A stretch of 64,000 nucleotides of DNA from the IMG/VR virus record IMGVR_UViG_3300037486_000490, positions 1 through 64,000 of that record; one strand, given 5' to 3'. Position 1 is the stretch's first letter. Each line of letters begins with the position of its first letter. Below are positions 22,261-47,250 of this stretch, piece by piece. This stretch comes from a virus. The notes below the pieces were generated by a model. The model did no database searches. It was not told the origin of the DNA and worked only from the letters and a program-made list of their open reading frames with translations. The position numbers were made by a program, and so were the translations under genes.

Positions 22261-22560
22261 TTAATTGATTGTTTTTCTTGGACGCTTAATACACAGTTGC
22301 TTTTCTATGTTGATCAGTCTTTCCTCGTGATCTTTATAGACTCTTATCTTAAGATCACAAACATCTGTCTGCACCTCCGCAAATTTCTTGTAGAAAGGAG
22401 CCAATACTTCTGCTATAGCTGCATCCTGCCTGTCGAATAACCGCTTGATGAAGACCAGGTCGTCTACCGTAAGATGCATGTTCTTATAGTTTAACTGGTA
22501 GTCCTTATCATCGAGGATCTTGTCCAGTTTTTCGTTATTGTTCATCTTATAATTCTCCAT
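22261..22560 (-). CDS. Hypothetical coiled-coil protein, 99 aa
   Basis: Unrecognised. It is strongly charged and helical: DKILDDKDYQLNYKN at the start, a central amphipathic helix, and a basic C-terminus (KRPRKTIN). It shares one base with the stop of the 159-aa membrane protein gene, indicating translational coupling with it. It could be a cytoplasmic partner of that membrane protein. A second in-frame ATG six codons later is possible. Confidence 0.55.
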   Translation of the reverse strand: MENYKMNNNEKLDKILDDKDYQLNYKNMHLTVDDLVFIKRLFDRQDAAIAEVLAPFYKKFAEVQTDVCDLKIRVYKDHEERLINIEKQLCIKRPRKTIN

Positions 22561-23039
22561 TATTTGTTTATCTTTCTAACTACAATACTCGGATCATACA
22601 GCTCTTGTTGCTCCGGCAAGAGATCCATCTGCTGAACTATACTTTTGTTTGTTACCAACGAAAGGTCTATCAGCTCCATCATTTTCGCCCAGTCTTTCTT
22701 GCTTACAGCAGGCGATGTCTCAATATGATAATTGAATGCTTTATTGACACCCTTTACATACATATTCACTTCTTCCACATGATTGCCTATCAACATAGTG
22801 TTTTCATTTATTCCTTCCACCTGCAAATTGATATCATCCATTCTGTTTGATAATACCTCAATACTATCCTGTATAGTTGTAAGCTGATCCTGTACCCCAT
22901 GAATTACTCTGGTCTGAGAAGCAACATTATCAATGAACTTAAATCCTCCCCACATAACAGCCACAATGCCTGAGACAGCACCAATGTATTTGCTGATGTT
23001 CAGAAGCTGAGTCATGAATGTTATCTTTGGAGTTGTCAT
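22560..23039 (-). CDS. Membrane-anchored coiled-coil protein (spanin/holin-like topology), 159 aa
   Basis: One membrane segment near residues 15-32 (YIGAVSGIVAVMWGGFKFI) is followed by about 80 residues of heptad-like coiled coil (QDQLTTIQDSIEVLSNRM, INLQVEGINENTMLI) and a short C-terminal tail. This inner-membrane anchor plus periplasmic coil is the layout of i-spanin-like proteins, but such proteins are too diverse to name from sequence. It starts with an ATGA overlap with the 37-aa gene. It could belong to the lysis functions scattered around 22-30 kb. Confidence 0.55.
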   Translation of the reverse strand: MTTPKITFMTQLLNISKYIGAVSGIVAVMWGGFKFIDNVASQTRVIHGVQDQLTTIQDSIEVLSNRMDDINLQVEGINENTMLIGNHVEEVNMYVKGVNKAFNYHIETSPAVSKKDWAKMMELIDLSLVTNKSIVQQMDLLPEQQELYDPSIVVRKINK

Positions 23040-23150: not shown

Positions 23151-25913
23151 TTATCGTGTTATCACAACTAATTTTCCACTGTTCATTTCCAGCTTGCTAT
23201 CGTTAATCAGATATCTTGCCCCACGCTCGAAGGCACCCAAATCTGGAAGATAGCCTCGTAGGTAGCCATCTCCGTCTGTTGTCACACCCGTACCTATTAT
23301 TCCCCTGTCTTTGCAGTCAGAGGTAGATGCTAAATGGAGATATGTTAATAAAGGTAGATTACCATTTGTCTGCCTTGCTCCACTGACTCCTGTTGTATCC
23401 ACTGAGACAAAATCTGCCGATGTTACAGCCGGACCTGTTGGCATCCATGTAGCATGATATGATAGACTATCTGTTATAACATTGGTAAGTGCAGCAGTAT
23501 TAAAATTATACTGGTTCTCGACACTGATTAAATTCTTAAACACAAATGGGAGCCATTCAAATCCACTGACAAGAAATCCTCCATACCCATTATCGTAAGC
23601 CGTACTATGATAAAAATATATCAGACACTTTGCGTTGTTGGTTGCAAAACCGCTTTGCCTATTGAGAAAAGAAAGACAATTTACCACAGTACGTGCGAAC
23701 ACGGTACTATCTGCCGTGTCTGTCCTTCCTAATTTAAACCCATTGCCATCTCCTCCGGTAGTGGACTGATTTTCTCTATATCCATTATGCCATGTCCAGC
23801 ATTTATCTAAAGTAACCTGACCATCGCTATCCCAGCAATCGTATCCATCGTCTGAGTTATTCCACGAGCGACAACCCGTTAGTGTTACGGTTGATCCTGC
23901 GGCACTCTCCTCCATTCCAAAACCATCAGCATTACCGTAAGCTCCAGGTGATACGGTATAAGGATCAACGTTTGCATAAGAATCACAGTTTGTAAATGTT
24001 ATATTATCAGTAGCCCCATAAGCCGAGCCTATTCCCACGCCTCCATTGTGATGTGACACACATCTTGTAAGGGACATGTCGGTACTGTATAGTATGGCAA
24101 TCCCTTGTGCCCAATCTCCAGTAGAATGCTGTGGTACGTTTTTAACCTGTAACCCTATCAGTTCCCAATAACTGCAATTTATAAGCACTATCCCATAATG
24201 AGGAGCATCTGCTGACATTGTTGCACAATCCAGTACAGGCGTTTCGCCTGTATAATTCAACACTACTATCGGATTAACTGTCGTACCGTCATGATTATTT
24301 ACACTTACCGCCCTATAATCAGATCCAACCAGTGTCCCTGCTGATGCATAAGTGCCGCCTCTGATGTATAATGTATCTCCGGTAGTAAGCGTTTCAAACC
24401 CTTTCTGCCATGTTGCCCAAGGTGTATCAAAAGAACCATCTCCAGTAATATCATCTCCCCAGAGAGCAACATAATATCCACCAAGATCTATAGCTCGTTC
24501 AAACGCTCCAATATCACAATTACTATCCACAGAAATCCCATCATAATCTGAAGTTAGATTAAGATCAAGACCTGCGTTAATACAGGGAGAGCTTGACTGA
24601 AGATGAAAGTCTGTCGTTGAAACAAAGTCGGGATTATCATTTATCGAACTGGCTTCATCAGATATTGCAGTCTGCCATGCGGCTAATGTTACATAGAATG
24701 TCCCTTCATCCTGTTCGGCAATAGTGTCAATATCATAATACAAGTTATAATCCATATTGAATTTAATCGTACTGGTATAACCTATTAATATTGCCTTGCT
24801 TCTCGATCCGTAATATATATTATTCAAAACATCGCATCCTGTTATTATACCCGATGTTGACCATGAGATAAAATGACAGTCATTGCCATCATCAGGACGT
24901 TGGTCATAACTAAAAGAATATCCTGAATTGATACAGGTATTATTTACAAAATCAACATTAGTCAGGGTATCTGTTCCTCCTGATGTACCCGACCATGTTT
25001 CAAACGAATAATGGCAGTTTGTAATTATATTATTATTTATTAAACAGTTGGTGACTGCGTAACCATCATTCCCCTGGGGACTTATTCCAGCGTCAAAACA
25101 TTGGTTTACCTTATTCCTGCGTATAATGAAATCAGAGTTATTATTCCATAAGGAAATACCATTCCCCAATCTCCTTTGATCTGATGTGCCTGGATTAATT
25201 AACCATTCTCCCCCTACCCATGAAACATCGCATAACTCAAAGATAATATGATCGCAAGCCTCAAACTCTACTCCCGCTGCTGAACTATACCTAAAATCAA
25301 GATCTTGTATATGTATATATGATGAATTGATAAACTTAAAAATCCCCTGCGCTGCACCGTAATTGCCACAAGCCTCTATATGCGAATAGAATGTTCCAGG
25401 GTTACTTGTCGAATATAGGTATAACAAATCACCAGTCCCGTTATAAAAGAACCTCCCTTGTGCGGTGAGACTATCAATATATGCAAACTTATAACCAACG
25501 CTTGCCTCACTATTAAAAACAATGTTGCTTATGTCATTCTGCTCTGTTCCAAGCGTAGCGGTTGTTTTCCAAATATTCCCCGAATGAACCTCCCAGGCTC
25601 CCGTTGCGCTTAAATCTTTTGAGCCAAGCATCAACGGTCTATTGCCTGTTCCATAAGCACCATAAAAGATATAGTCTGATGACGTACCATCCTCGTTCTG
25701 ATAGATGCTACCCCTAAATGTGTCACCGCGTTTAAATAGAATACTATCCCCGGCGGCAAAGGTTGTGGCATGAACCTTTGCGAGTGTTGCCCATGCAAGA
25801 GCCGTTGTCAGTCCACTATCACTGTCACTCCCGTCAGAAGATGACACATAATAGGTAGCCGCTGAAACCGTCAGGCTGCATATCAGTAAAAGTATTGTTA
25901 GTGCTTTCTTCAT
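23151..25913 (-). CDS. Secreted parallel beta-helix protein, two modules, 920 aa
   Basis: Starts with a Sec signal peptide (MKKALTILLLICSLTVSA, then ATYYVSS). Two pectate-lyase-like beta-helix modules follow: residues about 20-470, opening TYYVSSSDGSDSDSG, and about 475-890, opening GYYVALWGDDITGDGSFDTPWATWQKG, each with the ATW..G...L..GDTLYIRGGTY pattern of right-handed helices that bind or cleave polysaccharides. The second module is closely similar to the 511-aa protein at 30925-32460. Short C-terminal beta tail. Could be a depolymerase or glycan-binding fibre; the signal peptide is unexpected for a virion protein. No catalytic residues can be assigned by eye. Confidence 0.75.
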   Translation of the reverse strand: MKKALTILLLICSLTVSAATYYVSSSDGSDSDSGLTTALAWATLAKVHATTFAAGDSILFKRGDTFRGSIYQNEDGTSSDYIFYGAYGTGNRPLMLGSKDLSATGAWEVHSGNIWKTTATLGTEQNDISNIVFNSEASVGYKFAYIDSLTAQGRFFYNGTGDLLYLYSTSNPGTFYSHIEACGNYGAAQGIFKFINSSYIHIQDLDFRYSSAAGVEFEACDHIIFELCDVSWVGGEWLINPGTSDQRRLGNGISLWNNNSDFIIRRNKVNQCFDAGISPQGNDGYAVTNCLINNNIITNCHYSFETWSGTSGGTDTLTNVDFVNNTCINSGYSFSYDQRPDDGNDCHFISWSTSGIITGCDVLNNIYYGSRSKAILIGYTSTIKFNMDYNLYYDIDTIAEQDEGTFYVTLAAWQTAISDEASSINDNPDFVSTTDFHLQSSSPCINAGLDLNLTSDYDGISVDSNCDIGAFERAIDLGGYYVALWGDDITGDGSFDTPWATWQKGFETLTTGDTLYIRGGTYASAGTLVGSDYRAVSVNNHDGTTVNPIVVLNYTGETPVLDCATMSADAPHYGIVLINCSYWELIGLQVKNVPQHSTGDWAQGIAILYSTDMSLTRCVSHHNGGVGIGSAYGATDNITFTNCDSYANVDPYTVSPGAYGNADGFGMEESAAGSTVTLTGCRSWNNSDDGYDCWDSDGQVTLDKCWTWHNGYRENQSTTGGDGNGFKLGRTDTADSTVFARTVVNCLSFLNRQSGFATNNAKCLIYFYHSTAYDNGYGGFLVSGFEWLPFVFKNLISVENQYNFNTAALTNVITDSLSYHATWMPTGPAVTSADFVSVDTTGVSGARQTNGNLPLLTYLHLASTSDCKDRGIIGTGVTTDGDGYLRGYLPDLGAFERGARYLINDSKLEMNSGKLVVITR

Positions 25914-25915
25914 GG

Positions 25916-27640
25916 TTAGTTATTTGATCTGCAAATCTCAACCCAGTCGCCTATCGTACCCTCATATAAGAGTGTGATATTATCACCAATACCTATCACC
26001 ATCTGACCCGTCAGTCGTAACCCTGCGCTGTCATCAAGCGTCAATGTATTAGTATCACTGCTACCAATGATTGTTATTATCTGCCCCGTAGTACCGTTAG
26101 CTATCTGCGGATCTACACTTATGTCTATTGCCGCCGCTGTATTGAAATACATAAACCTTGACAGCATAACCGTTGTTATACCTGTCCCTGCTACCACTGT
26201 TCCTGTACTCTCTATTGATACAATTCCATTCTCATAATCAGTAAGCAAAGGAGCGACATCTCCAAGTTCCTCAGTCTCAAAGGATACTGTATCCGCAAAT
26301 GCGGCATCTACTTCTGCTTCCCGGATGTACGGAGTAAGCATTGATGCCGTATCACTCCTTGCTATATACCGGGTTAACATAGAAGCTGTATCTCCTCTGG
26401 CTATGTATGGCGTAAGCATGGAAGTGGTGTCCGAGATATTTACCTTTAGAGCTACGTTCGCTGTTGTAGCAAGTGTTCCTGATACTGGAAGGGTTATTGC
26501 TGTTGTTCCCGTAGTAGTGGCAGTTATGCCATGTCCACCCGATAAGGTTAATGACCCTGAGTTTCTTGTATAACCCGTTACAGTAGCCGCGTTACCCGTG
26601 ATACTACCCGCAATAGCATTGGTTACTTCAAGGTCGGTGAACCATCCCTTTGTCACTCTTGTACCTGTTACTCCTATAGAGCCTGTCATAGAAAGGTTAT
26701 TTGCTCCCAGAGCTAAATCTCCTCCACCTAATGTAAGAACGTTAGAAGAATGAGTAAGCGTTATATCTCCATTATTAAAATTAACTACTCCCCCTGATGC
26801 AAGAAACAAATCGCTCCACATTACAGAGGTAGTGCCCAGGGCAGCTCCATCGTTTGTGTCAGCGGTAATAGCCGTAGCTACGGTCGGGGTTCCTGTAAAA
26901 GCAGGCGAAGTAAACATTGTTGCCTTGCTCTCATTGGTTACGTTGCCTAATGATACATCTGTTGCTGTTAAAGAAAGCGCTGTCTTAAGGTTTGCAGCAC
27001 TGAGAGCCGTTATAGTATTATCCGCATTAAACCGAGGAAAGGTAACTGCACTGGGATTAACAAGGGTAAACATGCTTTGCCCTATAGTTGTACCACCAAG
27101 ACTTGTTCTACCCGTGGCTGCTACAAGACTGGTAGTACCACCATCCCACCTTAATCTCGCAACATAAGAACTATCCCAGTTGACAGAGTTATTGGTTATA
27201 CTTGTATTCCATGCGGCACCTGTGGATAGTGCTATACCGGCGGCAGGATACAGCATTGAACCCCCGCCCCCTACAATGGTCATATCACCGGAGCCAAGGA
27301 TAGGTAAGCCATTAATTGTTTTTATAGTTACACCTGACTCCAGTGAATCTTGCTTACCATCCAATTGAGCCTGAACAGATAACAGAGTATCAATCCCTAC
27401 CAGCATGTTCATCTCTGTAGCAGTTGCCAAAACACCATCGAGTACGGCAAGTTCTTCAGCATTAAAATCATACAGTCTTAAATCATTTAACAACACAATT
27501 GCACTGTTGGTCTTTATCGCTATTGTCCTGGGAGAATCTCCTACCGCACTAATAGCTGATGGAATAACAATCGTGGGGAGCTGTCCGAAAACAATTGTCC
27601 CCACTAATATCAGTAAAAGAGAAATTAGTATTTTTTTCAT
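25916..27640 (-). CDS. Tail-fibre-like protein with signal peptide, 574 aa
   Basis: Sec signal peptide (MKKILISLLLILVGTIVFGQ) followed by a low-complexity, Thr/Ser/Gly-rich, beta-structured body with phage-fibre phrases (VLDGVLATATEMNMLVG, LGNVTNESKATMFTSPAF, ALGTTSVMWSDLFLA). It is a paralogue of the 707-aa protein at 33344-35467, with which it shares the start of the mature region and the LGNVTNESKATMFTSP segment. Repeats of DTASMLT.YI occur near residues 405-440. It shares an ATGA overlap with the metacaspase gene and is two bases from the beta-helix gene. Probably a trimeric adhesin or adaptor fibre. Confidence 0.7.
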   Translation of the reverse strand: MKKILISLLLILVGTIVFGQLPTIVIPSAISAVGDSPRTIAIKTNSAIVLLNDLRLYDFNAEELAVLDGVLATATEMNMLVGIDTLLSVQAQLDGKQDSLESGVTIKTINGLPILGSGDMTIVGGGGSMLYPAAGIALSTGAAWNTSITNNSVNWDSSYVARLRWDGGTTSLVAATGRTSLGGTTIGQSMFTLVNPSAVTFPRFNADNTITALSAANLKTALSLTATDVSLGNVTNESKATMFTSPAFTGTPTVATAITADTNDGAALGTTSVMWSDLFLASGGVVNFNNGDITLTHSSNVLTLGGGDLALGANNLSMTGSIGVTGTRVTKGWFTDLEVTNAIAGSITGNAATVTGYTRNSGSLTLSGGHGITATTTGTTAITLPVSGTLATTANVALKVNISDTTSMLTPYIARGDTASMLTRYIARSDTASMLTPYIREAEVDAAFADTVSFETEELGDVAPLLTDYENGIVSIESTGTVVAGTGITTVMLSRFMYFNTAAAIDISVDPQIANGTTGQIITIIGSSDTNTLTLDDSAGLRLTGQMVIGIGDNITLLYEGTIGDWVEICRSNN

Positions 27641-28419
27641 GTCAGTGCCTTTTTATCAAGCAGTTTGTCACTTCCTTCCTGTACAGGATGCTGTGTAAAT
27701 TCTTTATTTGGCAGGTACAGACTCATCATTTCAAACCATTGCCGATACGTTAAGTCCCGGTGGAGTGTCTGTGCCCAATAGTAAGTGAAAATTCCACCAC
27801 CACTGGTGCCTATCTGGGCTTCTGTGGCAGTTTCGTTCTCTGCACAGGCACTTACCACTATCCGATTCAATCCTGGTTCTACGACCCTGCGAATGCGCTT
27901 ATGAGTGATTAATTCCTTACCCTCCGCAGGTGGCATAAACCTTGCCTTGTGGTAATGGGGATTATGCAGTTCCTTTGTAGCTGATCCTGAGTGGCAACTA
28001 TCAAGCACTACCACGAGTGTAACGCCTTCAGGTACATTCTCACATGCTGTATTAAGGTCATCGTCTATAAGGTTACCGTCATACAAGTACAGCGTTTCAT
28101 CGTACCCGTCAATCTCATCCCCGGATACATCTCGTACATAACTCCCGTGTCCGCTGTAGTGAAGATATATTACATCGCCTGCTATGGAATGCTCAATAGC
28201 GTAGCGCAGCTGGTCAATGAAGTTCTTCTTTGTTACCTGCCAATCAATGAATTCCCGTATCTGAAAGTCTGGCATCTTGGCTTTCATACGGTTGATGTCT
28301 TCATTACAGTAACGTAAATCGTTGCTGCTGCCCGGATAATTATTAATCCAGAACAGCAGCGCGATTTTACTATTATGTTCCCAGTTGGTTTTCACCGACT
28401 TTCGTTTGAAGCACATCAT
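27637..28419 (-). CDS. Metacaspase-like cysteine peptidase (C14 fold), 260 aa
   Basis: Start taken at the ATG; a TTG one codon earlier is open but unlikely. The core shows both catalytic motifs of the caspase/metacaspase family: LHYSGHGSY with His at about residue 91, and VVLDSCHSGSA with Cys at about residue 142. GDEIDGYDETLYLYDG between them matches the metacaspase loop. The rest fits a p20 core with a short p10-like tail. There is no signal peptide or prodomain, so it should act in the cytoplasm. It lies between a 162-aa exported protein and a signal-peptide fibre gene, with an ATGA overlap with the latter. Target and timing are unknown. Confidence 0.85.
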   Translation of the reverse strand: MMCFKRKSVKTNWEHNSKIALLFWINNYPGSSNDLRYCNEDINRMKAKMPDFQIREFIDWQVTKKNFIDQLRYAIEHSIAGDVIYLHYSGHGSYVRDVSGDEIDGYDETLYLYDGNLIDDDLNTACENVPEGVTLVVVLDSCHSGSATKELHNPHYHKARFMPPAEGKELITHKRIRRVVEPGLNRIVVSACAENETATEAQIGTSGGGIFTYYWAQTLHRDLTYRQWFEMMSLYLPNKEFTQHPVQEGSDKLLDKKALT

Positions 28420-28426
28420 CAAATTG

Positions 28427-28915
28427 TTAGAATGTTACAGTAGGACCCCAGCCAATATACCAGTTAGCTTTGGCGGGATTGTTCTTTACAAAATCATAGC
28501 CGGCTACCATACTCAGCGAAAGTCCTTTTACATCGAGTACCGATGCTGAAAGAGCAACACCTGCATAAGGTTGTTCGACGGTTGCCACACTTATCATAGC
28601 TGCAAATGAGTAATCATTATAAGGTTTGTCACTCACAAGCTTGTAATGGGAATAGCTTAAGCCGAATCCTGCGCGTGATACGAACGTGCTTTCAAACTGC
28701 AAGAACTCACCAAGCTCATTATAAGACGACTTCACCACTTGAGCCATTATCAGCATCTCAGGACGGAACAGGAACGAGCTTACTGCATCTTTGGATCCGC
28801 TTACACTCTGGATACGTTCAACCGTTACCGGTTCAAGAAATCCTTTAAAGAGACCCTGGGCGTTAGCCATTGTCATAGACAACAGCAGAACTGCGAGAAA
28901 TAGAAGTTTTTTCAT
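28427..28915 (-). CDS. Exported beta-rich protein, outer-membrane-like, 162 aa
   Basis: A cleavable signal peptide (MKKLLFLAVLLLSMTMANAQ) is followed by short alternating beta strands (AGFGLSYSHYKLVS, PYAGVALSASVLD) and ends in an aromatic residue (WGPTVTF), the layout of a small outer-membrane beta-barrel or exported sheet protein. It begins one base after the 119-aa membrane protein and is followed by the metacaspase gene. If it reaches the outer membrane it could change the cell surface, for instance in superinfection exclusion or lysis; this is inference. Confidence 0.6.
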   Translation of the reverse strand: MKKLLFLAVLLLSMTMANAQGLFKGFLEPVTVERIQSVSGSKDAVSSFLFRPEMLIMAQVVKSSYNELGEFLQFESTFVSRAGFGLSYSHYKLVSDKPYNDYSFAAMISVATVEQPYAGVALSASVLDVKGLSLSMVAGYDFVKNNPAKANWYIGWGPTVTF

Positions 28916-28916
28916 G

Positions 28917-29276
28917 TTACTTTCCTTTATTAATTATTTGTTTTTCACGGTACATCCTGGTGTTAATCTCCTTGGATTTAACTACATCGACTTTCTTGAA
29001 CAGGAACTTCATTACCGTATTCACAAGCCAGGCTACCATAGATCCTTCTTTGATCTTGCCTGTCTGACCGAGCCATGTCTCAATAGGTATGAGAATTACC
29101 AGAGCAACCATTGCCCAGTTGGCTTTCACAAGTCCCAGGAGAAACTGGAACATATCATTGAATGTCATGCCTTGATGCACAACCGTGCTGTCCACTGGTG
29201 TGGAATCAACAACCTGTCCCGATACGACCATAGCCGTAATCAGGAGTACTGTCATAAGTAAAATACTCTTTTTCAT
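28917..29276 (-). CDS. Exported/membrane protein, 119 aa
   Basis: N-terminal signal sequence (MKKSILLMTVLLITAMVVSGQ), a short Val/Thr/Ser linker, then one strong membrane segment at about residues 57-75 (MVALVILIPIETWLG) and a basic C-terminus. I cannot name the family; the topology (signal plus one membrane span, basic tail) is compatible with a holin or an o-spanin-like partner. It is two bases upstream of the 162-aa exported gene. It belongs to a run of small membrane proteins at 28.9-29.9 kb that is the best candidate lysis area. Confidence 0.55.
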   Translation of the reverse strand: MKKSILLMTVLLITAMVVSGQVVDSTPVDSTVVHQGMTFNDMFQFLLGLVKANWAMVALVILIPIETWLGQTGKIKEGSMVAWLVNTVMKFLFKKVDVVKSKEINTRMYREKQIINKGK

Positions 29277-29298
29277 GTTTAATTATTATTTAAGTGAT

Positions 29299-29406
29299 TC
29301 AAATACAATACTCTACAAAAATGTAGCTGCCAAAAGCTATGCAACCCAGAAGTCCAAGTTCTATGACTCTCATTGCAATGACGATTAATACTACTGCTGT
29401 TCTCAT
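29299..29406 (-). CDS. Very small membrane protein, 35 aa
   Basis: ATG to TGA with no other gene in the stretch. The peptide is almost wholly hydrophobic, with a single membrane span (start MRTAVVLIVIAMRVI, then LGLLGCIAFGSYIFV). It sits between two membrane protein genes. Small spanning peptides of this size occur as phage holins or holin regulators. The gene could be spurious, but length, hydrophobicity and context favour it. Confidence 0.45.
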   Translation of the reverse strand: MRTAVVLIVIAMRVIELGLLGCIAFGSYIFVEYCI

Positions 29407-29464
29407 GGATATTACTTTTTAGCAAGTTAATTCCATGAATATTCAACCGACACCAGACTGCCGG

Positions 29465-29509
29465 AAAGGGTTATTATATCTATAACCCTTTTACAAGGAA
29501 AGGTTTATA
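29465..29509 (-). terminator. Duplicated intergenic hairpin, copy 1, with two alternative stems
   Basis: Directly downstream of the 100-aa gene. TATAACCCTTT at 29481-29491 can pair with AAAGGTTTATA at 29499-29509 (one mismatch), or its ATAACCCTTT part can pair perfectly with AAAGGGTTAT at 29465-29474. The two pairings exclude each other, as in terminator/antiterminator switches. A closely related sequence occurs at 37753-37781, also just after a gene stop. Confidence 0.5.
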
Positions 29510-29517
29510 AGATGCGT

Positions 29518-29820
29518 TTAGGGAAGAGGCGGAAAAGTATTCGGTACCCAGGGCATCAGTTCTGCAACAAGTTGAACGAATATCCATCCGAGTATGCCTG
29601 CTGCGTTCCATGCCATATCCCAGGCACTGATAAATTCTTTATCATGATATTTATCCCATAATTCTTTACCCACAGCAACCAGCCCTGCAATTCCCATTGC
29701 AAGCAACCTGGGAATAAGTGTCTGCCAATATTCATTTCCGCCTATAGAAGGCGAGAGAAAATTGTACGTTACATCTGTTATGAAGTAACATGCCAGAAAA
29801 TGTAAGAGTGCTTCTATCAT
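29518..29820 (-). CDS. Small integral membrane protein, holin-like, 100 aa
   Basis: Three hydrophobic segments are visible: residues 4-18, 35-50 and 70-88. Between the second and third lies GKELWDKYHDKEFISAWD, then a WNAAGILG helix, a pattern I recall from small phage and bacterial membrane proteins of the YfiM/DUF2279 type. There is no cleavable signal. A duplicated hairpin follows its stop. The size, spans and the cluster of small membrane proteins support a holin or lysis regulator, but this is not proven. Confidence 0.55.
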   Translation of the reverse strand: MIEALLHFLACYFITDVTYNFLSPSIGGNEYWQTLIPRLLAMGIAGLVAVGKELWDKYHDKEFISAWDMAWNAAGILGWIFVQLVAELMPWVPNTFPPLP

Positions 29821-29830: not shown

Positions 29831-30922
29831 TTAATTACCATCCCATCCAGCAATTCTTGCAAGCATCCACCACATAGCTTTACCAAGTCTTAATTCTCCA
29901 GCAGCAGAAATATGCCCTTCTATTTCTGGATCATTATTTGTATTTGTTATAGAAGGATAAGTATGTCCATCCCATGTTGTAGTAGTGGGTGTCCCGTTGT
30001 CATCATAACATAAAATATCAGCATAATCAAAAAGTATTACACTCTCTTGAGAATCAACCCAATCTCTAAGGTGTTCATACTTGAGATAAGCCTGGTACAT
30101 ATTTTCAGCGTTGAGATTTCCATTATAATTATCTACTGGTCCTGTTGTGAAAAATACTTTTGTAGGAATACTATTGGTAGTACAATAATCAACATATTCT
30201 TGTGTGACACTTATATATGTATCCATACTCACACCATTGCCTGTAATTGAAAAATCAGAAGCATCTAATCCCCATGCTCTGTCACCATTTGGACCACTAA
30301 CAGAAGAACCCCACCAATGAACTCCATAAATAGGATCAGCAGTTTCAGTAGCACCAGTTCCCATTGGATCCCAACACCATCCAAATCCAATAGCTGAAAC
30401 AGTCAGATTGTTTGCATAACAATAAGAGATACTTGCTTTTGTTCTTGTAATAGCAGTAGCATTGGTCCACCAATCTTCTTCACCATGCCAATATATCCAA
30501 CCTGTAGTATTATCATAATCGCCCCATCTTGCCCCACTTGCTCTTAGATGAGAAGTAGTATATGCTTCTGGGTTTGGATCTGTACCTACCCAGGGAATTC
30601 CATCAGTAACATTAACTGCAAACTTAGCATCCAATGCCTGTAATAAAATTAATCCATATCTTACTCCATAAGAATGCGATTCTCCTGCATTTACCATCCA
30701 CATTTTTTTTACCTCATTAATGTACACCTGTGGAATATCGTTATATAAATTTACTACAGTATGATCAGCTATTATCTTAGGAGACGTTGATTGTTGTTCA
30801 ACTGTATAATTAATAGGAGTAAATCCGCCATTATTAATAGGAATTCCATTATGGACTAACAGTGATTGTGCAGATATACCGAAGCTAACTAATAATAATA
30901 TTATTGTAATATTTTTCTTCAT
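29831..30922 (-). CDS. Secreted SGNH/GDSL-hydrolase-like protein, 363 aa
   Basis: Signal peptide MKKNITIILLLVSFGISAQ. The mature part shows motifs that could be the SGNH blocks: VNAGESHSYG near residue 78 (block I Ser), VFFTTGPVDNYNGN near residue 255, and a C-terminal DPEIEGHISAAG (candidate Asp/His), followed by a helix. This suggests an esterase or deacetylase acting on surface glycans, as found in some phage tailspikes, but the GDSL signature is weak. The gene is markedly AT-rich, unlike the head genes. Neighbours are a beta-helix protein and a lectin-like protein. Confidence 0.55.
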   Translation of the reverse strand: MKKNITIILLLVSFGISAQSLLVHNGIPINNGGFTPINYTVEQQSTSPKIIADHTVVNLYNDIPQVYINEVKKMWMVNAGESHSYGVRYGLILLQALDAKFAVNVTDGIPWVGTDPNPEAYTTSHLRASGARWGDYDNTTGWIYWHGEEDWWTNATAITRTKASISYCYANNLTVSAIGFGWCWDPMGTGATETADPIYGVHWWGSSVSGPNGDRAWGLDASDFSITGNGVSMDTYISVTQEYVDYCTTNSIPTKVFFTTGPVDNYNGNLNAENMYQAYLKYEHLRDWVDSQESVILFDYADILCYDDNGTPTTTTWDGHTYPSITNTNNDPEIEGHISAAGELRLGKAMWWMLARIAGWDGN

Positions 30923-30924
30923 AG

Positions 30925-32460
30925 CTATTTTACTGGTATTCCTTGATATATTATAAGTTTACTTCCGTTTACTATTGGCAATACTATATTACTATCCCCA
31001 CTTTCATACCATCCAAGATCAGGAGCAGAGCCATTATAAATAATCCCAAGACTTGACATATTATCATCAGTTACACCTCCATCAATCAAATCTGATGTTG
31101 GATCAAGTTTTCCAAAATCAACATCAGGCAATGAACCATCTGTCTTTCTTGATGCTAAAAGTTCATTAACATCCAAACTTATAAAATCATCAGCTGTAAC
31201 AGTAAATGAAGGATTGTCTTGCCAAAAAGGACTGCTACCATAACTTTGGAAAGTATTATGGTCCAGCGTAAAAACCCAACTCATATTATCTTGAGCCCAA
31301 GGAATATTAAACCAAGGGTAATCAGAATCAAGATAAGATATATTATTTCTATAAATACACCATGAAGCTGCAAGTGGACTTTCAGTACAATTCTGTACAA
31401 GATATCCTATTTTATTATTATATGATATGTTATTATATGTCCAAGCTCTCGTCCATTCATCTCCTAAAGCATTATTAGGATCATAACTAAATCCCATATT
31501 ATTAGCAGATATATTATTATGTGTAATTCTTGAAATATAATCTGGTGTATGAGGAGGAGGATCACCTATCTTAAATCCATTACCCTCTGATGCTGATAAT
31601 GTTGGATCGCCATTATTAAATGCCCAACAGTTACGCATTACTGTAAGACATAATTGATCTAAATTAATACCATCATCAGCATTACCCCATGCTCTACATC
31701 CTTCTAATAATCCATAATTTGTAGTAAAATCATCATACTGTTGTAGAAAAAATCCATCTGCTCCATTACCAGCTTGTCTTAACCATGTCACACCAAGGTC
31801 AAGTGTATAGGTACTAAGACTATCAGCATTATCATAAGCATCACAATTTATCCACATACTTGTATCTACTATTGATAAATTATAATTGAATATGTTAAAT
31901 CCAGCACCACCATTATGATGTGAATGACATCTATCAAAGATTAAATTTGTGCAATCACTACTTGTCCATCCAGGAGTTTTATGACCATATTCTCCATAAT
32001 TTACCAAGTCTATACTTCTTTGGTCTTGTCTTACATTACATATAGTTAATCCAACAAACTTGACATAATTACAATTAGAAAATTCTAATCCATTATTATA
32101 TCCTTGAGGTGATGCAACTTGATATCTGCAATCAAGAACAGCGGAATCTCCTACAGCAAGTTCTGGCGGATACAGTGAAATAACCAATGGAGCTGCACGT
32201 GAAGATGTCATACCATCTAAATAAACATACGCTGATCTTGTGGTTTCATTTGCTGGTGTATATCTTCCTGCTCTAATATATAACGTATCACCAGCTGATA
32301 ACATTTCTACCCCATGCTTCCATGTTGCCCATGGTGTTGAAATACTTTGTGCTTGAGTTGTAGTTCTACTATCATTACCATTTGTTGCAACATAGTACGT
32401 AGTAGCTGATACATTTAATGATATTAAAATCAATAATAATATAATAAATCTTTTTATCAT
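30925..32460 (-). CDS. Secreted parallel beta-helix protein, 511 aa
   Basis: Signal peptide MIKRFIILLLILISLNVSA, then TTYYVATNGNDS, the usual opening of right-handed beta-helix (pectate-lyase-like) proteins, and STPWATWKHGVEMLSAGDTL. Rungs with Asn/His/Ser and NGGAG/NNISYN repeats fill residues 100-420. It is a paralogue of the second module of the 920-aa protein at 23151-25913. It is AT-rich and overlaps the 295-aa gene by four bases. A glycan-binding or depolymerising role is likely; export by Sec is odd for a structural fibre. Confidence 0.7.
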   Translation of the reverse strand: MIKRFIILLLILISLNVSATTYYVATNGNDSRTTTQAQSISTPWATWKHGVEMLSAGDTLYIRAGRYTPANETTRSAYVYLDGMTSSRAAPLVISLYPPELAVGDSAVLDCRYQVASPQGYNNGLEFSNCNYVKFVGLTICNVRQDQRSIDLVNYGEYGHKTPGWTSSDCTNLIFDRCHSHHNGGAGFNIFNYNLSIVDTSMWINCDAYDNADSLSTYTLDLGVTWLRQAGNGADGFFLQQYDDFTTNYGLLEGCRAWGNADDGINLDQLCLTVMRNCWAFNNGDPTLSASEGNGFKIGDPPPHTPDYISRITHNNISANNMGFSYDPNNALGDEWTRAWTYNNISYNNKIGYLVQNCTESPLAASWCIYRNNISYLDSDYPWFNIPWAQDNMSWVFTLDHNTFQSYGSSPFWQDNPSFTVTADDFISLDVNELLASRKTDGSLPDVDFGKLDPTSDLIDGGVTDDNMSSLGIIYNGSAPDLGWYESGDSNIVLPIVNGSKLIIYQGIPVK

Positions 32461-33344
32461 GGGATTATTCCTTTACTATTTGAATCCATATATGCTTCAA
32501 AATTATCTACAATAGCATCTCTCATTGCAGTAGTGATATGTTCAGCAACAAAAGCAAGTGATACTTGTGCTACTGAATAAAATTCCCTTGTATAATTTTT
32601 TCTTGCCAATATGTTAAATTCCATTGTAGGTAGTCCAACGCTATTGGCTGTGGCAGGATCAGAAGTACTGGTTGTTTTATTTTTATATAAGATCACAGCA
32701 CTTGAACTTGTTCTTGTTGTTATCCATAATGCAGCGTGTGCATTACTTGTAGTTTCAGTATAACTTACTGTAACATCATTAAGAGAAAAAACAATCTCCC
32801 CAGACGAATAAGGTTGCAAACAAGTATTTTGAACGCCATCAGATACACCAAGATAACATCCTTCATTTGCTGGGTTTGCAGCCGTTCTGGAGTAGACGCC
32901 TATTGCTCCACTATTCTGAGTAAAATTAACTCCATCAGTGGATGGTACAAAATCAGTGCTAATATATTGAGATGTTCCATTACCAGTAAATCCTTCAAGT
33001 GTAGTAAATGATGCACTATAGTTTGTACAATCATGATCTCTCTCAACTGCATTTCTTAAAGATGACTCTGATGTCTCATTTGCAAGAATATACATTGCAT
33101 CAAATACATCAGATAGATTAGTAATACCTAAGTCACTTTTAAGATCGGTAAAGAATGTATTTAACTTATCGAGTTGTCCACTACTTAATTCAGTAGTAAG
33201 ACCATTAATATACGTTTCAAGATCAGAGTCATATCCTCCCCCTTGCTCTGTAGCAACAGGAACATGAAACGGATGTCTTGCAATCTGCCCCTGGACTGGC
33301 AGAAGTAGTAAAACAAGTAGCCATATTGAAAATAGTCTTCTCAT
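32457..33344 (-). CDS. Secreted lectin/LamG-like receptor-binding protein, 295 aa
   Basis: Signal peptide (MRRLFSIWLLVLLLLPVQGQ). The middle and C-terminal part (GFTGNGTSQYISTDF, QNSGAIGVYSRT, then MEFNILARKN) resembles the concanavalin-like domain of receptor-binding proteins that I recall from Bacteroidetes phages, including the end segment AFVAEHITTAMRDAIVDNFEAY. It shares one base with the 707-aa fibre gene and four with the beta-helix gene. Probably recognises a surface glycan. AT-rich like the two genes downstream. Confidence 0.55.
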   Translation of the reverse strand: MRRLFSIWLLVLLLLPVQGQIARHPFHVPVATEQGGGYDSDLETYINGLTTELSSGQLDKLNTFFTDLKSDLGITNLSDVFDAMYILANETSESSLRNAVERDHDCTNYSASFTTLEGFTGNGTSQYISTDFVPSTDGVNFTQNSGAIGVYSRTAANPANEGCYLGVSDGVQNTCLQPYSSGEIVFSLNDVTVSYTETTSNAHAALWITTRTSSSAVILYKNKTTSTSDPATANSVGLPTMEFNILARKNYTREFYSVAQVSLAFVAEHITTAMRDAIVDNFEAYMDSNSKGIIP

Positions 33345-35467
33345 TACCAGTTCCTTATTTTATAACCAGACATTGTTAAACTTAGCAAACTTGGTTTATT
33401 GCCAGCCGATACTGCTGAAATAGTACACCATACCCAGACATTAGGTGGTATTTCATTATTTGTAAAACTCGTATCTTCATCGCCAGTAGTAATACTGGTT
33501 ATAGTATAAGCCGCAGAATTGAGGTTTGTGGCAGAACCACTCTTAAATGTACCATGCCAACTGATCTGAACCCCGACTGTTTCTGTTCCAGACCCTTCAG
33601 CTAAAACTCCCCTTATAGAAGTGATATGAAGTGTATCAGCGCCAGCATTATAAAATGCTCCTGAGATAGCATTATTATTAAATACTACTGTATCTGCCGA
33701 TATTCCAGAGCCAAGTCCAAATATGAATATTGGAATGGTATCTATATTAAGTCTGGCATTAAGTGTAATTAAATCTTCAACATCCTCTTCTGTTACTGTT
33801 CCCGTTCCTCCATAGGTTCTTGCGTAAGATTGTGTAGCTAATGTATCTGTTGTACTAACTTTTTGAACTCCAGTGAAAGTTGGATTTGCAAGTGGAGCAT
33901 AAGTTGACGAAACCTCAGAACTAAGTATATAGTGAGTTAACATTGAGGTAGTATCAGATACGTTTACTTTGTTAGTTAAGCCGGTTGTTAGATCATAATT
34001 TGAAGCATAATGCCCTGGACCAGCCGTGCTATCGGCAAGCATAACTGCAATATCAGATATTTCTAATCCTGCTCCTATCCTTGCATCAAGACTATCATTA
34101 ATATTTTGTGTGGTGGAAAGAGTCCCGGATGTTGGCAGAGTTACAGTTGTAGATGCTATGGTTGTAAAGGTTAGTGCATCAGCACCCGAAAGCGTTAATG
34201 ATCCACTGGCAGGGGTGAAACCCGTCACTGTTGCAGCAGTCTCACTATCCAATAAATAATTACCCAACATAGAAGCCGTATCTGCCACCTCTATATAAAG
34301 AGGTCGTAAAACATTCAGACTATCAGCAATTTCATCCCTGACATCTCCTATTGTTACTGTACCAATACCGCCATAAGATCTTGCATAAGACTGGGTAGCA
34401 AGTGTATCAGTTGTACTATATTTAGGAAGAACACCCGTGAAAGTCGGAGATGTAAACATTGTTGCCTTACTTTCGTTGGTAACATTTCCTAAACTTACAT
34501 CAGACGATGTCAATGAGAGAGCAGTCTTGAAGTTTGCTGCACTTAAAGCATCTACGGTGTTATTTGCATTTACACGAAGAAAGGTTATTGCCGATGGATT
34601 TGTGAGAGTTAACAGGTTTGAACCAACTGTTGACTGAGCAACAAACCCCATGTTTCCATACTCGTCAATATTCAATAAATTCGTGGTTCCAGCAGAAGGT
34701 AGTGCAGCTATCGGAAGTCGATAACTCCGATTTGCAGTTGGAGCTCCTCCTTGTAGTGCTGTCCAAAATCCATTACTTCCATAAAAATAAAGTAGGCTTC
34801 CTCCATCAGATGTACCATCAAAATAAGGCGCAGCAGTACCATTACCCACAAGACCAGCTCTATCCCATACTGTTGAGTTATTGGTTATTGTAGTTCCCCA
34901 TGATGATCCGCTTGTTACAATAGGTATTCCTGAACCACTTGGATAAACCATTGAAGCTCCTTCTCCAACTTCCGTTAACAAAGCATACGTACTAAGCATT
35001 GTGGCTGTATCTGCTACGGCTACATATAAAGGTCGAAATACATTAAGACTGTCAGCAATCTCATCACGAACATCTCCAATAGCCACCCCTCCTGATCCAC
35101 CAACAAGTCTTGCATAAGCTCTTGTAGCAATAGTATCAGTTCCTATCCCCACAAGTTTGTTAAGCTCTGTATATGTGACCAGGGCTCCATCAAGGACATT
35201 TAATTCCTGACCGTTTGATGTTATCGTCACCGCATTGACCCTCCATGTAACAGGAAGTGATACCGTACCAGTGAATGTAGGTGATGCCAAAGGAGCTTTA
35301 GCTGTTTGTAAAATAGTTATTGAATCACTCGCTATCTCATCGTTAGCATTAATTATAGTTCTTGCCGTAGTCCATGTTCCTCCTGCGGGAATTGTGGTAA
35401 TAGTCTGTGCCATCAAACCTACTGAGAGTAAGACTACACCGAATATTATAAGTAATATTTTTTTCAT
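33344..35467 (-). CDS. Tail-fibre-like protein with signal peptide, 707 aa
   Basis: Signal peptide (MKKILLIIFGVVLLSVGLMAQ) and a long beta-rich body made of internal repeats: VRDEIADSLNV occurs twice, DTLATQSYAR occurs twice, and PTFTG segments recur, as in phage fibres built from triple beta-spirals. It shares the TELNKLVG and LGNVTNESKATMFTSP segments with the 574-aa paralogue at 25916-27640. It ends in a small beta domain rich in Ser/Thr. The signal peptide is unexpected for a fibre made in the cytoplasm. Confidence 0.65.
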   Translation of the reverse strand: MKKILLIIFGVVLLSVGLMAQTITTIPAGGTWTTARTIINANDEIASDSITILQTAKAPLASPTFTGTVSLPVTWRVNAVTITSNGQELNVLDGALVTYTELNKLVGIGTDTIATRAYARLVGGSGGVAIGDVRDEIADSLNVFRPLYVAVADTATMLSTYALLTEVGEGASMVYPSGSGIPIVTSGSSWGTTITNNSTVWDRAGLVGNGTAAPYFDGTSDGGSLLYFYGSNGFWTALQGGAPTANRSYRLPIAALPSAGTTNLLNIDEYGNMGFVAQSTVGSNLLTLTNPSAITFLRVNANNTVDALSAANFKTALSLTSSDVSLGNVTNESKATMFTSPTFTGVLPKYSTTDTLATQSYARSYGGIGTVTIGDVRDEIADSLNVLRPLYIEVADTASMLGNYLLDSETAATVTGFTPASGSLTLSGADALTFTTIASTTVTLPTSGTLSTTQNINDSLDARIGAGLEISDIAVMLADSTAGPGHYASNYDLTTGLTNKVNVSDTTSMLTHYILSSEVSSTYAPLANPTFTGVQKVSTTDTLATQSYARTYGGTGTVTEEDVEDLITLNARLNIDTIPIFIFGLGSGISADTVVFNNNAISGAFYNAGADTLHITSIRGVLAEGSGTETVGVQISWHGTFKSGSATNLNSAAYTITSITTGDEDTSFTNNEIPPNVWVWCTISAVSAGNKPSLLSLTMSGYKIRNW

Positions 35468-39191: not shown

Positions 39192-41252
39192 CTACGGTGT
39201 TCCGAATGCTGCTATATCATTAGCAGCTGTTAATAATCCTGCGGAGCTTAAGCTTGCAATAATGGTAGTTCCATACTTAAATACAAGTTTTCCGCTTTCT
39301 TGCATTATGGTAAAGTTTGTCATATTAAGTTCAGCATGCGTATGTGCCAGTAAACTATACCTTAAATCTCCACGCGCATCTGTATGATATATTGTATGAT
39401 CGTCATCGAGCAATCCTGTCAATGAACCATGGTCAGTAAGTATCGGAGCAGTGCCTGATAACTGTGGATTGCCCCTGAGATCCTGAGCCTCAGCGTATGT
39501 TCCACTTGAAGAGGTAGCATCGACTATTACCTTGTATAATACCTTGAACTCCGGAGAGGGCAATGTTCCAAAAGACAATCCCGAGTATGTTGCTGCCCTT
39601 GCTGCAGCTAATGTGCCATATGCAGCCTGACCCATAAGTGAAATAATAGGTGACACCGTATCATTGGTTGCTACCAGGTAATACACCCCATATTCATTCG
39701 ATGCAAGCTCTGCCAGCGTTCCGGCATTATCATACTGGGGTCTTCCACCAGTTCCTGCTTTCCACCAACTATTTTGAAGTGAAGTCCATAACCAATTGAG
39801 ACTTACATCCCTGTAAACAACTGATACCTGGTATGGATTTGCTCCCGTAATGCTGTAAAAAAGATCCTCATCCGCATACTGTCCACCTAAAAGGTTAATG
39901 GATGTGTCAGCAAAAGCTGCTGTAAGCCCTGAGATATATGCTGTACCCCTTGTAAGATGCAGATAAGCATGCGTAGAAGAAGTCATGTTAGTCCCGTGAC
40001 GCTCGTCATATAACCGGTAATTCGCACCGTTCTTGTAAACAATGCATATAGGAACTGCGGTAAATATGCTCCAGGATACTTGCAGTCTTGTTAGTACTCC
40101 CGAACTATTATAGTACACATACCATATTCCATTAGCAGATGCAGAAAAATCTAACGTCTGCGTTGTCTTGGCATATGCTGTTCCCTTATACCATGCAGTA
40201 TGTACCCCTGTAATATTCAATACTCCTGCAACAACAGACAATGTAGGAGTGGGATACAATCCCGTAGGCTCCTCTATAGCATCAACAGGGTTATTTGTTA
40301 TATTATCCCAGTGAACCTGAGCAGATCCTGAGGTCTGTACCTCTGTTTTGGTGTATACGCTTGTTGCAGCTGCATAACCGGCGGATGCATGGTTGCCCCA
40401 TCCATAAGCGGTATTCCAGTTAGCTGAGTTATTTGTTATTGATGTTCCCCATCCAAGTCCTGTAGAAAGTCCAATCCCTGCCCCGGGATATACCATACTC
40501 ACAGAACCACCTCCAGCCGGTTGCCAGGTACCGTCCTCACGAAGAAACAACGTAGCGCCGGTACCGAGTATAATACCACCCATAACAGTCGGCGTGGCAA
40601 CAGGCATGCTTTCCCAGATAGTAGGAGGAAGCCATCCGGTAGAAGACCATGCCTGGATTTCATAATCACCGGCAAAAGACTTCTTGCATCTCAAATATTC
40701 ATTCGGGAGACCGGAATTCATAATCTCAAACCAGTCACTGACATCTGTTCCACCAGAAGTAGCAGGTATCCATGACCTGACGCCTGCCGTAGTAGAACTT
40801 AAGACATATCCACTCACAGCGGGGTTGCCAAGAACAGGCTCATATACTCCGGCATGCGTATGTGCAACAGGAGAATAGACTCCCGTATGAGTATGCGCCA
40901 GCAGAGAATAACGTGCATCCCCGCGTGTCTGGTTATAATATATCGTATGATCGTCCACCCCAAGATCAAGCAGATCTCCATGGGATACGATAGCACTATC
41001 GGTATCTATCACCAACTCCCAGTTGACAGCCTGGTATGCCCCGGTAGAGTCCGCGGTACAAACGTATAGTTTACCAGTAGTGAGGTAAAGGTCGTTAATG
41101 AAGTAAGGATGAGTGGGTTCTGAGTAAAATACCTGTGCCCTGGAATTCTGCAGGTCTACCAGGCTATTATTTACATGAATGAATGCATCACGGAGCAGAT
41201 CCCCTGTACCGTCATCAGCTGCAAGTCCAACATTTATAAGTTCTATAGCCAT
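39192..41252 (-). CDS. Long tail fibre protein, 686 aa
   Basis: The start MAIELINVGLAADDGTGDLL, then RDAFIHVNNSLVDL, is the common N-terminal motif of phage tail fibres (DGTGD..RDAF..VN), used to attach to the tail. The body has fibre-type repeats: AHTHTGVYSPVAHTHAGVY, ILTDHGSLTGLLDDDHTIYH and a second GDLRYSLLAHTH near the C-terminus. No signal peptide. It overlaps the 94-aa gene by one base. Probably the main adhesion fibre, joined with the BACON and FISUMP proteins downstream. Confidence 0.8.
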   Translation of the reverse strand: MAIELINVGLAADDGTGDLLRDAFIHVNNSLVDLQNSRAQVFYSEPTHPYFINDLYLTTGKLYVCTADSTGAYQAVNWELVIDTDSAIVSHGDLLDLGVDDHTIYYNQTRGDARYSLLAHTHTGVYSPVAHTHAGVYEPVLGNPAVSGYVLSSTTAGVRSWIPATSGGTDVSDWFEIMNSGLPNEYLRCKKSFAGDYEIQAWSSTGWLPPTIWESMPVATPTVMGGIILGTGATLFLREDGTWQPAGGGSVSMVYPGAGIGLSTGLGWGTSITNNSANWNTAYGWGNHASAGYAAATSVYTKTEVQTSGSAQVHWDNITNNPVDAIEEPTGLYPTPTLSVVAGVLNITGVHTAWYKGTAYAKTTQTLDFSASANGIWYVYYNSSGVLTRLQVSWSIFTAVPICIVYKNGANYRLYDERHGTNMTSSTHAYLHLTRGTAYISGLTAAFADTSINLLGGQYADEDLFYSITGANPYQVSVVYRDVSLNWLWTSLQNSWWKAGTGGRPQYDNAGTLAELASNEYGVYYLVATNDTVSPIISLMGQAAYGTLAAARAATYSGLSFGTLPSPEFKVLYKVIVDATSSSGTYAEAQDLRGNPQLSGTAPILTDHGSLTGLLDDDHTIYHTDARGDLRYSLLAHTHAELNMTNFTIMQESGKLVFKYGTTIIASLSSAGLLTAANDIAAFGTP

Positions 41253-44282: not shown

Positions 44283-44876
44283 TTAAATTATGCCTTCGAC
44301 TTTAAGGATCCCCAATATGTGCATATTTGCAACACGTTGCCGGAACCCGCTGGTCATCATCATCCTGCATTCCTCTTCATTATCGTAGAAGAAGTTCTCC
44401 GTGAGTATTGCCGGACAGATGGTATTTTTCAATATGGTGAAATTGGCTTCCTTATGTGGTTCATTCACCGATGTCCCCACCCTCATATGGCTCTCAGGAA
44501 ACTCCTTACAGGCTTCTGCAAAGAACACCTTGGCTACCCTGTCAGCTGCACTTATGGCAGAACTTACTGCGGTCCATACTTCCCAACCATGTCCTCCTCC
44601 CGCGTTAGCGTGAATGCTTACGAGAATAGAATTGAAATTGGTCTTCACCAGCGTATTCACGCGTTCAACCCTTTCCGAAAGGCTGATATCATTTTCCTCG
44701 GGTACCAGCACATGGAAACGTATGTCGTTTCTACAACTCAAGGTATATGCTATTCTGTCTACTATGTCACGATTGAACTCCCATTCAAAGAGCTGGGAAC
44801 CATCTGACCACACCGGAGAACGTTTTCCGGGAGTATTGTTCCCATGCCCGTTGTCCAATATCCATAGTCTGTTCAT
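44283..44876 (-). CDS. N-acetylmuramoyl-L-alanine amidase (Amidase_3 type), 197 aa
   Basis: The zinc-amidase motifs are in order: LDNGHG at residues 7-12, a Glu in LFEWEFN near residue 31, SIHANAGGGHG near 87-97, and LTENFFYDN near 157-165 with the catalytic Glu. This family cuts the amide bond between MurNAc and L-Ala in peptidoglycan. There is no signal peptide, so release needs a holin or use as a virion-bound lysin. It lies inside the head gene cluster rather than next to the small membrane proteins at 29 kb, which would fit a role in entry or in lysis. Confidence 0.85.
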   Translation of the reverse strand: MNRLWILDNGHGNNTPGKRSPVWSDGSQLFEWEFNRDIVDRIAYTLSCRNDIRFHVLVPEENDISLSERVERVNTLVKTNFNSILVSIHANAGGGHGWEVWTAVSSAISAADRVAKVFFAEACKEFPESHMRVGTSVNEPHKEANFTILKNTICPAILTENFFYDNEEECRMMMTSGFRQRVANMHILGILKVEGII

Positions 44877-45795: not shown

Positions 45796-47250
45796 TTACG
45801 ATGCAACACAACGCAGGTGAACGCAATTGGTAGCACGTTTGATCTGTATACCGCCGGTCTTCATGAAATGAACTGAAGCTCCGTCGATGTCATTTGCCCT
45901 GAGAGCGTTTCCGGAGAATCCCGGAGGAACTGTAGCACCCGCAACAGCCCATCTGAGCATATCGCGTCCGGTCTGTACAACCATCTGGATGTTAGGTTCG
46001 CCATCATAGACTGAATGATCAAGGAAGAACATCCTGTATGATTCCAGGGGTAAGCCTGTGCGTGGATGTTTCGCTGAGTTGAGTGCACGAGCACCCGTGT
46101 CAAGAAGCGGGAGATGTCTTACGGTGATCGTATGACCATCAATGTGCTTGTAGGAAGTGAAGAATCCGCCAAACGTCATCGAGTTTCCTGAACCGGTTAT
46201 GAATGAACTCGGGTCTGTGTTCTTGATGTATGAGCCAACGCTGATCTCAGATTTGATAGCATTGTCAAACTCTTCAAGCCCACCGAGTCCTGTGTACAGG
46301 ATGATGTTCATTGACTGTGCATCCGAAGCTCCGTAGAGTGCATCGCGAACGATGTTCTTCAGTTTGGATGTAGTCAGGACCGTGTAAGAATCTACGTTAG
46401 GAATCTGCTCCATAACGCCGGATCCCATTGGGATAGGTTTGCCGTTCTCATCGCGCAGGTTGATAACGCCATTGGCGTCCCTGTTATATTTCGAGAACCA
46501 CAGAAGGTATTCAGCTTCCTCTTTCCAGCGGAGTGAATGCTGATACTCTTCGAAGTCATACCACAGCTTGGTCATCTTGCCGTTGACATTGAATTCAACG
46601 TTGACAACTTTATTGGGCATGTTACCTTCATACCTGTAAGACTTACGGATCTGTGTGATCTGGTTGCGCAACCTCGAGGGTGCTACCCAGTTCGACTCGT
46701 TTCCGCGTGATCCGGAAGCAGCAACAGGAGCAAACAACTGAACGAACAACTTATTAAGCAGGTCGGTTGTGCTAACTGTAGCAGCAGGATCGGTGGTGAT
46801 CAGGTGGGTGGTATAAGTCCATGCACCACTTGCTGTTTCAAAACCATCGTCATCAATACGGAACTGTGTTCCATCGGGTGATTCGATGATGTACTGACGG
46901 TTGAACCACTTTTCAGTGAACGTCAGTTTAATAGGTGCAAAGCCTGCACCAAGGGTAACACCGGCAGTTGTGCCTGTGTTAACCGCAGTACACATAACAG
47001 CCTTGTTGAGTCTTCCCATCACGGGATAATCAAATTCGAACCCATTGATGTAACGGGTGTTTCCAAGACCTTCAGTTAAGAAAGACAGTGGAAATCTTTT
47101 GTCTTCACGCCCCGCGAGGTGTGTAAGAACCGGTGAGAGAACATCTGGCTGTGTAAGCAGCGCGTTAGCCAACGAGTTCTCGTCGGTCATCCCCTGCGGG
47201 TTCCAGATGTCTGCATATAACCGGAGTTTTGAAATGTTGTCAGCAGCCAT
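45796..47250 (-). CDS. Major capsid protein (HK97-type), 484 aa
   Basis: Starts MAADNISKLRLYADIWNPQG and carries FPLSFLTEGLG near residue 53, a segment I recall from crAss-like major capsid proteins; length (about 490 aa) also fits. There is a long extended region and a C-terminal beta end. It follows the scaffold-like gene (100-base gap) and ends at a strong terminator, as expected for the most abundant virion protein. HK97 fold is inferred; the delta domain is not separately visible, so scaffolding is probably by the upstream gene. Confidence 0.85.
   Translation of the reverse strand: MAADNISKLRLYADIWNPQGMTDENSLANALLTQPDVLSPVLTHLAGREDKRFPLSFLTEGLGNTRYINGFEFDYPVMGRLNKAVMCTAVNTGTTAGVTLGAGFAPIKLTFTEKWFNRQYIIESPDGTQFRIDDDGFETASGAWTYTTHLITTDPAATVSTTDLLNKLFVQLFAPVAASGSRGNESNWVAPSRLRNQITQIRKSYRYEGNMPNKVVNVEFNVNGKMTKLWYDFEEYQHSLRWKEEAEYLLWFSKYNRDANGVINLRDENGKPIPMGSGVMEQIPNVDSYTVLTTSKLKNIVRDALYGASDAQSMNIILYTGLGGLEEFDNAIKSEISVGSYIKNTDPSSFITGSGNSMTFGGFFTSYKHIDGHTITVRHLPLLDTGARALNSAKHPRTGLPLESYRMFFLDHSVYDGEPNIQMVVQTGRDMLRWAVAGATVPPGFSGNALRANDIDGASVHFMKTGGIQIKRATNCVHLRCVAS

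Follow-up and report, generated by a model that had tools for sequence, protein, structure and literature searches.

We found that a crAss-like phage encodes an intact metacaspase (C14) with p20 and p10 and a modelled caspase fold, at 27637..28419 on the minus strand of the stretch of DNA analysed here (the window, 64,000 nucleotides of a 92.5-kb IMG/VR record). We propose, with a probability of roughly 0.4, that this protein is an active, late, cytoplasmic protease of a swappable host-exit cassette, that is, one serving lysis and release. Bacteria and giant eukaryotic viruses are known to encode proteases of the caspase family, whereas for tailed phages there seem to be essentially no reports of them. 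Together, the cassette and the unrelated cysteine protease in that of a sister phage point to proteolysis as a step of host exit, late in infection, which is undescribed for such phages. The metacaspase would also bear on the origin of viral metacaspases and on how phages deal with caspase-based bacterial immunity.

The open reading frame runs from an ATG at 28419 to a TGA at 27637, with a TTG one codon farther upstream, and encodes 260 amino acids. Pfam Peptidase_C14 matched residues 18-248 (E = 3.9e-22, 79.5 bits), exceeding the curated cut-off of 21.4 bits. A phmmer search against the PDB returned GSU0716 (3bij) as the top match (3.4e-20), followed by metacaspases 4 and 1, MCA2 and metacaspase 9, and a profile aligned with yeast Yca1 over both p20 and p10. 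The AlphaFold2 model had a pLDDT of 79.7 and a pTM of 0.79, with a low-confidence segment at residues 147-180, between p20 and p10. When this model was searched with Foldseek, solved metacaspases ranked first, with E values of about 1e-15 (2.4e-15) and TM-scores of 0.6-0.7; the top matches were plant, bacterial, fungal and trypanosome metacaspases. A chance motif was rejected on the Pfam match, the model and the Foldseek result, which are far beyond chance. The first-pass annotation had called a cytoplasmic metacaspase with an intact His/Cys dyad, while allowing that a model might lack a caspase fold. The family and structure searches confirmed the assignment and the fold was predicted; HYSGHGSY, DEIDGYDET and VVLDSCHSGSA were all found in this order from the N-terminus, and no signal-peptide-like N-terminus was detected by a simple hydrophobicity rule, in agreement with the cytoplasmic location. 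No second C14 gene was present in the 92.5-kb record. The GC content of the gene was 0.45 and that of both neighbours 0.44, and a foreign base composition was rejected on these values.

The catalytic dyad consists of His91 in YSGHG and Cys142 in DSCHSG. The proposed S1 pocket of TbMCA2 comprises Cys92, Asp95, Ser156 and Asp211 (PMC4357240), for which the alignment gave Cys38, Asp41, Ser89 and Asp140 as equivalents in the window protein; because these residues are present, the enzyme is predicted to cleave after Arg or Lys. Calcium in CgMCA-I of Candida glabrata is bound by Gly196, Asp198, Asp214, Thr242 and Asp245 (PMC9622860). Alignment with the PDB relatives placed Gly105, Asp107, Asp119 and Ser146 at the first four of these positions. 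Calcium control is plausible and not secure, because Lys149 occupies the position of the remaining acidic ligand, Asp245.

These features place the protein near the type I-like metacaspases of MEROPS C14B (GSU0716/3bij, TbMCA2, Yca1 and CgMCA-I), with which it shares the p20-then-p10 order without a long linker, the dyad, the S1 residues, the DEIDGYDE and IDDD segments and the predicted fold. In type I enzymes p20 and p10 are separated by at most 66 aa (PMC6426788), and the linker of the window protein (the low-confidence residues 147-180) lies within this distance. Most orthocaspases lack p10 (PMC6426788), which is present here. Unlike the C14B enzymes, the window protein is phage-encoded in a late cassette, carries Lys149 in place of the calcium-ligand Asp and has almost no N-terminal prodomain: the Pro-rich/zinc-finger prodomain of eukaryotic type I enzymes is absent and the first strand begins at residue 18.

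The record was identified as a crAss-like virus by its Crassvirus major capsid protein (45796..47250, minus strand; Pfam Crass_capsid 1.5e-85, PHROG 3.2e-97), accompanied by portal and terminase (Pfam, PHROG). Capsid identity to the nearest annotated crAss-like phages is only about 34%. At 1-11796 on the minus strand, an ORF that runs off the window encodes more than 3,900 aa, includes a DFDVD motif and resembles the giant crAss-like phage proteins of RNA-polymerase type. The window virus thus shares capsid, portal, terminase and this type of ORF with known crAss-like phages, and differs from them in its metacaspase, which C14 queries found in no catalogued crAss-like record. The metacaspase gene is tightly packed between phage genes, the upstream neighbour ending at 28427 and the downstream gene starting at 27640, where it overlaps the metacaspase stop. 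The placement in a phage late operon, also claimed by the first-pass annotation, stands, and the contamination by a bacterial contig that it had considered was rejected, since crAss capsid, portal and terminase lie on the same record, the phage genes are closely packed and the flanks are conserved.

The cassette spans 23.1-39.2 kb. It encodes beta-helix or fibre-like (spike-like) proteins together with small membrane proteins of the kind seen in lysis modules, and all genes named in this paragraph lie on the minus strand. Directly upstream of the metacaspase is a 162-aa signal-peptide protein (28427..28915; called from the ORF and the hydrophobicity rule), followed by a 119-aa protein with a signal peptide and one more hydrophobic segment (28917..29276), a candidate lysis-module membrane protein matching no family in Pfam or NCBIfam. 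Farther upstream are a 100-aa membrane protein with weak DUF2279/YfiM similarity (29518..29820; Pfam 0.0014 and NCBIfam 0.002, below cut-offs), a 363-aa exported protein not assigned to a family (29831..30922), a 511-aa signal-peptide beta-helix protein (30925..32460; Pel9A-like, Pfam 1.8e-11) and a 707-aa fibre-like protein with a signal peptide (33344..35467). The conserved upstream flank is a tail-fibre-like protein (39192..41252; 62% identity over 312 aa in the sister phage). On the downstream side, the gene overlapping the metacaspase stop encodes a 574-aa tail-fibre-like protein with a signal peptide (25916..27640), whose fibre repeats are also found in 33344-35467 and 39192-41252. Next come a 920-aa protein with a signal peptide and a Pel9A-like beta-helix of polysaccharide-lyase or spike type (23151..25913; Pfam 3.1e-22) and the conserved downstream flank, a 159-aa membrane and coiled-coil protein that is spanin/XhlA-like by architecture only (22560..23039; 63% in the sister phage).

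Signal peptides in these genes were called by the same hydrophobicity rule and not by SignalP. Sec-type signal-peptide-like starts occurred in 9/13 cassette genes at 23151-37661 vs 0/28 other late genes tested, and the metacaspase is among the few cassette genes without one. Signal peptides are unusual for tail-type proteins, which suggests that spike-like or polysaccharide-degrading proteins are exported during infection. Outside the cassette, an Amidase_3 N-acetylmuramoyl-L-alanine amidase (44283..44876, minus strand; Pfam 9.2e-22; 76% in the sister phage) is the likely endolysin. Holin- and spanin-like genes of the window were recognised by architecture only; its small membrane proteins gave no good match in Pfam or NCBIfam, and none was a confident holin. 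A 36-nt intergenic repeat, 94% identical between its copies and weakly hairpin-forming, was observed at 29474-29509 and 37746-37781, upstream of two cassette gene groups (two copies in the window, none expected); it is possibly a transcription-unit element.

The closest sister phage was IMG/VR contig G001 (92,245 bp), whose capsid and TerL are 91% and 84% identical to those of the window virus (G000). The two phages are conserved at 19.5-23.0 and 39.2-55.4 kb and largely different at 23.1-39.2 kb. No C14 gene was found in G001; its block (L126) instead carries a Peptidase_C1 papain-family protease (L126:1876-2841; Pfam 1.2e-8, over the cut-off) with intact Cys, His and Asn motifs. Beside this gene lies a homologue (28% identity) of the membrane protein at 28917-29276, and after that homologue comes the conserved 22560-23039 gene. 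The two proteases are both cysteine enzymes, share the cassette position between conserved flanks and are each next to a small membrane protein of one type, but they differ in fold and family, and the gene order inside the block is different. Among 28 crAss-like records, many of them fragments, C1 occurred only in G001 and C14 only in G000. The metacaspase was rejected as a conserved crAss-like gene and would not be essential to the group, because 0/27 relatives (many likewise fragments) carried it. The exchange is suggestive of a functional interchange of metacaspase and papain, as seen in the one pair G000/G001.

The closest homologue of the window metacaspase (42-44% identity) was found in L003, a phage-like contig, which together with a second contig, L031, had been binned with a small-genome bacterium. 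No metacaspase match was detected in 286 other genomes of that phylum; on this result and the phage-like character of the contigs, the genes were rejected as belonging to the binned bacterium. A search for a crAss capsid in the bin found none, although no control gave a signal. The metacaspase ORF of L003 overlaps both of its neighbours: upstream the gene for a coiled-coil membrane protein, and downstream that for a small protein with two helices, whose Holin_SPP1 similarity (E = 0.0025) is below the Pfam cut-off; DUF5675 and then signal-peptide proteins follow. The L031 neighbourhood contains the same kinds of genes. Homologues of the 162-aa neighbour of the window metacaspase were also present, with 47% identity by the metacaspase region of L031 and a weaker 27% in L003. 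The metacaspase ORF of L031 (1099-1911) is rearranged: the segment with the His motif is gone from its usual place and instead forms the in-frame C-terminal end, reaching the stop. A short GTCAT(C)AGGG match is common to the junctions. This block order is either a real rearrangement or an artefact; the AlphaFold2 model of the rearranged protein (pLDDT 55.6, moved segment below 50) is of low confidence and uninformative.

Profile scans of IMG/VR detected metacaspases in 13 phage contigs, the largest of 485 kb; single-sequence scans with the metacaspase, its 162-aa neighbour and the 22560-23039 protein returned nothing and were insufficient for detection. Counting these contigs, the window and L003, His and Cys are kept in 14/15 phage copies, and the S1-pocket residues are present in nearly all of the phage relatives. 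The exception is L163 (7989-8885), where both catalytic residues are replaced, by Asn and Ser; this homologue is likely a pseudoenzyme. The metacaspase was the only gene common to all 11 contigs of the second scan, and a shared neighbour gene was rejected. On the unrelated phage contig L158, the gene directly upstream of the metacaspase encodes a papain-family protease with a signal peptide; the observed order (L158:6274-8822) is papain, metacaspase, coiled-coil membrane protein, signal-peptide protein and polysaccharide-deacetylase fibre. In L159, a C93 cysteine protease and lipoproteins lie near the metacaspase.

The host-exit proposal draws on the predicted fold, the dyad, the S1 residues, the missing signal peptide, the position in the cassette, the papain in the sister's cassette and the recurrence in other phages; activity, the Arg/Lys preference, late timing, cation control, the substrates and an effect on lysis are what we infer. 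The metacaspase would accumulate together with the spike and lysis proteins. Divalent cations would enter once the inner membrane has been breached by membrane proteins of the phage, and would render the enzyme fully active. It may then cut host, and perhaps phage, proteins after Arg or Lys, and this proteolysis would help to dismantle the cell and free the progeny. The first-pass annotation had listed use near lysis beside virion protein processing and action against a host defence; the first of these options gains support from the nearest homologues, L003 and L031, whose genes are surrounded by DUF5675 and membrane-protein genes of the kind found in lysis modules. That annotation did not include the replaceable cassette, the papain of the sister phage or the recurrence in 13 IMG/VR contigs. 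Several observations weigh against the host-exit proposal: one calcium-ligand Asp is replaced, which makes calcium control uncertain, the gene is missing from 27 crAss-like relatives, the window has no confident holin and the L003 holin match is below the cut-off, several large-phage metacaspases (L156, L161-L163) are not beside recognisable lysis genes, the papain-for-metacaspase swap comes from a single phage pair, and a protease without a signal peptide would meet its exported cassette-mates only before export or after lysis. A bolder version, which we regard as doubtful, is that host-exit cassettes reserve one slot for a cysteine protease of the cytosol, of caspase or papain fold interchangeably, acting as a timed execution protease at membrane breach. 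If true, viruses would possess, in this slot, an equivalent of the cell death that caspases drive in bacteria.

The chief rival, to which we give clearly lower odds than to the host-exit role, is a processing protease matched to the cassette's own fibres and spikes, maturing or releasing them during or after assembly. Protease and fibre genes were replaced together between G000 and G001, and spike-like or beta-helix proteins lie near the metacaspase in L033, L036 and L157 (judged from sequence and weak Pfam matches), with a Pfam Beta_helix near that of L003 (below the cut-off) and L031. Against such matching, nine cassette proteins carry Sec-type signal peptides and the protease does not, and papain and metacaspase specificities differ.

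Somewhat less probable than fibre processing is counter-defence, under which the protease would either cleave an immune protein of the host or serve as a decoy during abortive infection driven by caspases. Caspase-like proteases of bacteria have defensive roles, one example being those that work with gasdermins (PMC9079055); the window protein matches the PADLOC 'caspase' model at 1e-10, and its retained catalytic residues and patchy distribution fit an arms race. The PADLOC model is, however, a generic caspase. With bacterial orthocaspases and caspase defence proteins the window enzyme shares the caspase fold and the expected basic P1 preference; unlike them, it was seen with no sensor, TPR, CHAT or gasdermin partner. 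It is a single-domain protein, and a PADLOC scan of part of the neighbours found no gasdermin or sensor gene in the cassette. The gene is also surrounded by fibre and lysis-type genes and does not lie in an early counter-defence region, and replacement by a papain in a lysis-type cassette would not be expected. For metacaspases of giant eukaryotic viruses, an action on the death of the host cell has been proposed (PMC6450098). The enzymes of Medusavirus, Heterosigma akashiwo virus and mimivirus relatives are likewise virus-encoded and gave the best viral fold matches, although these are nucleocytoplasmic viruses of eukaryotes, unlike the window phage.

The first-pass annotation had also held caspase-fold peptidases to be rare in phages, and for catalogued phages the surveys bore this out. 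C14 searches with three kinds of query gave one match in 50,697 catalogued phage genomes, an uncultured 485-kb megaphage record, and the 24 matches at E <= 1e-3 in a viral structure library came mostly from giant viruses of eukaryotes, with no tailed phage among them. An open-access literature search (subscription papers lay outside its scope) found no paper on a phage-encoded metacaspase; the metacaspase family itself is known, and a phage copy in such a cassette, replaced by a papain in a sister phage, is undescribed in the literature searched. The tree paired the window and L003 copies with full support (100/98), apart from the bacterial rows, and put three large-phage copies in a separate supported group; the number of acquisitions is not settled because deeper branching is weak. 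A host origin is plausible because Bacteroidota chromosomes often carry homologues (70/395 genomes, with best identities of about 34-47%). One set of small Bacteroidota genomes frequently encodes standalone metacaspases of about 275-300 aa (L134-L151), which over p20 share 36-47% identity with the phage protein. That the gene is accessory cargo of bacterial origin with no role in the phage cycle, for example competing with other phages or host factors and kept transiently, would fit these common chromosomal homologues and its absence from all 27 relatives, but we consider it improbable, as the window and L003 copies group apart from the bacterial ones, keep dyad and S1 residues at about 43% identity and are tightly embedded in both G000 and L003.

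A tRNA with anticodon TTA, for which the scanned parts of G001 gave no counterpart, was predicted by ARAGORN at 59921-59989 on the plus strand of the window; it would read UAA, yet some genes end in TAA.
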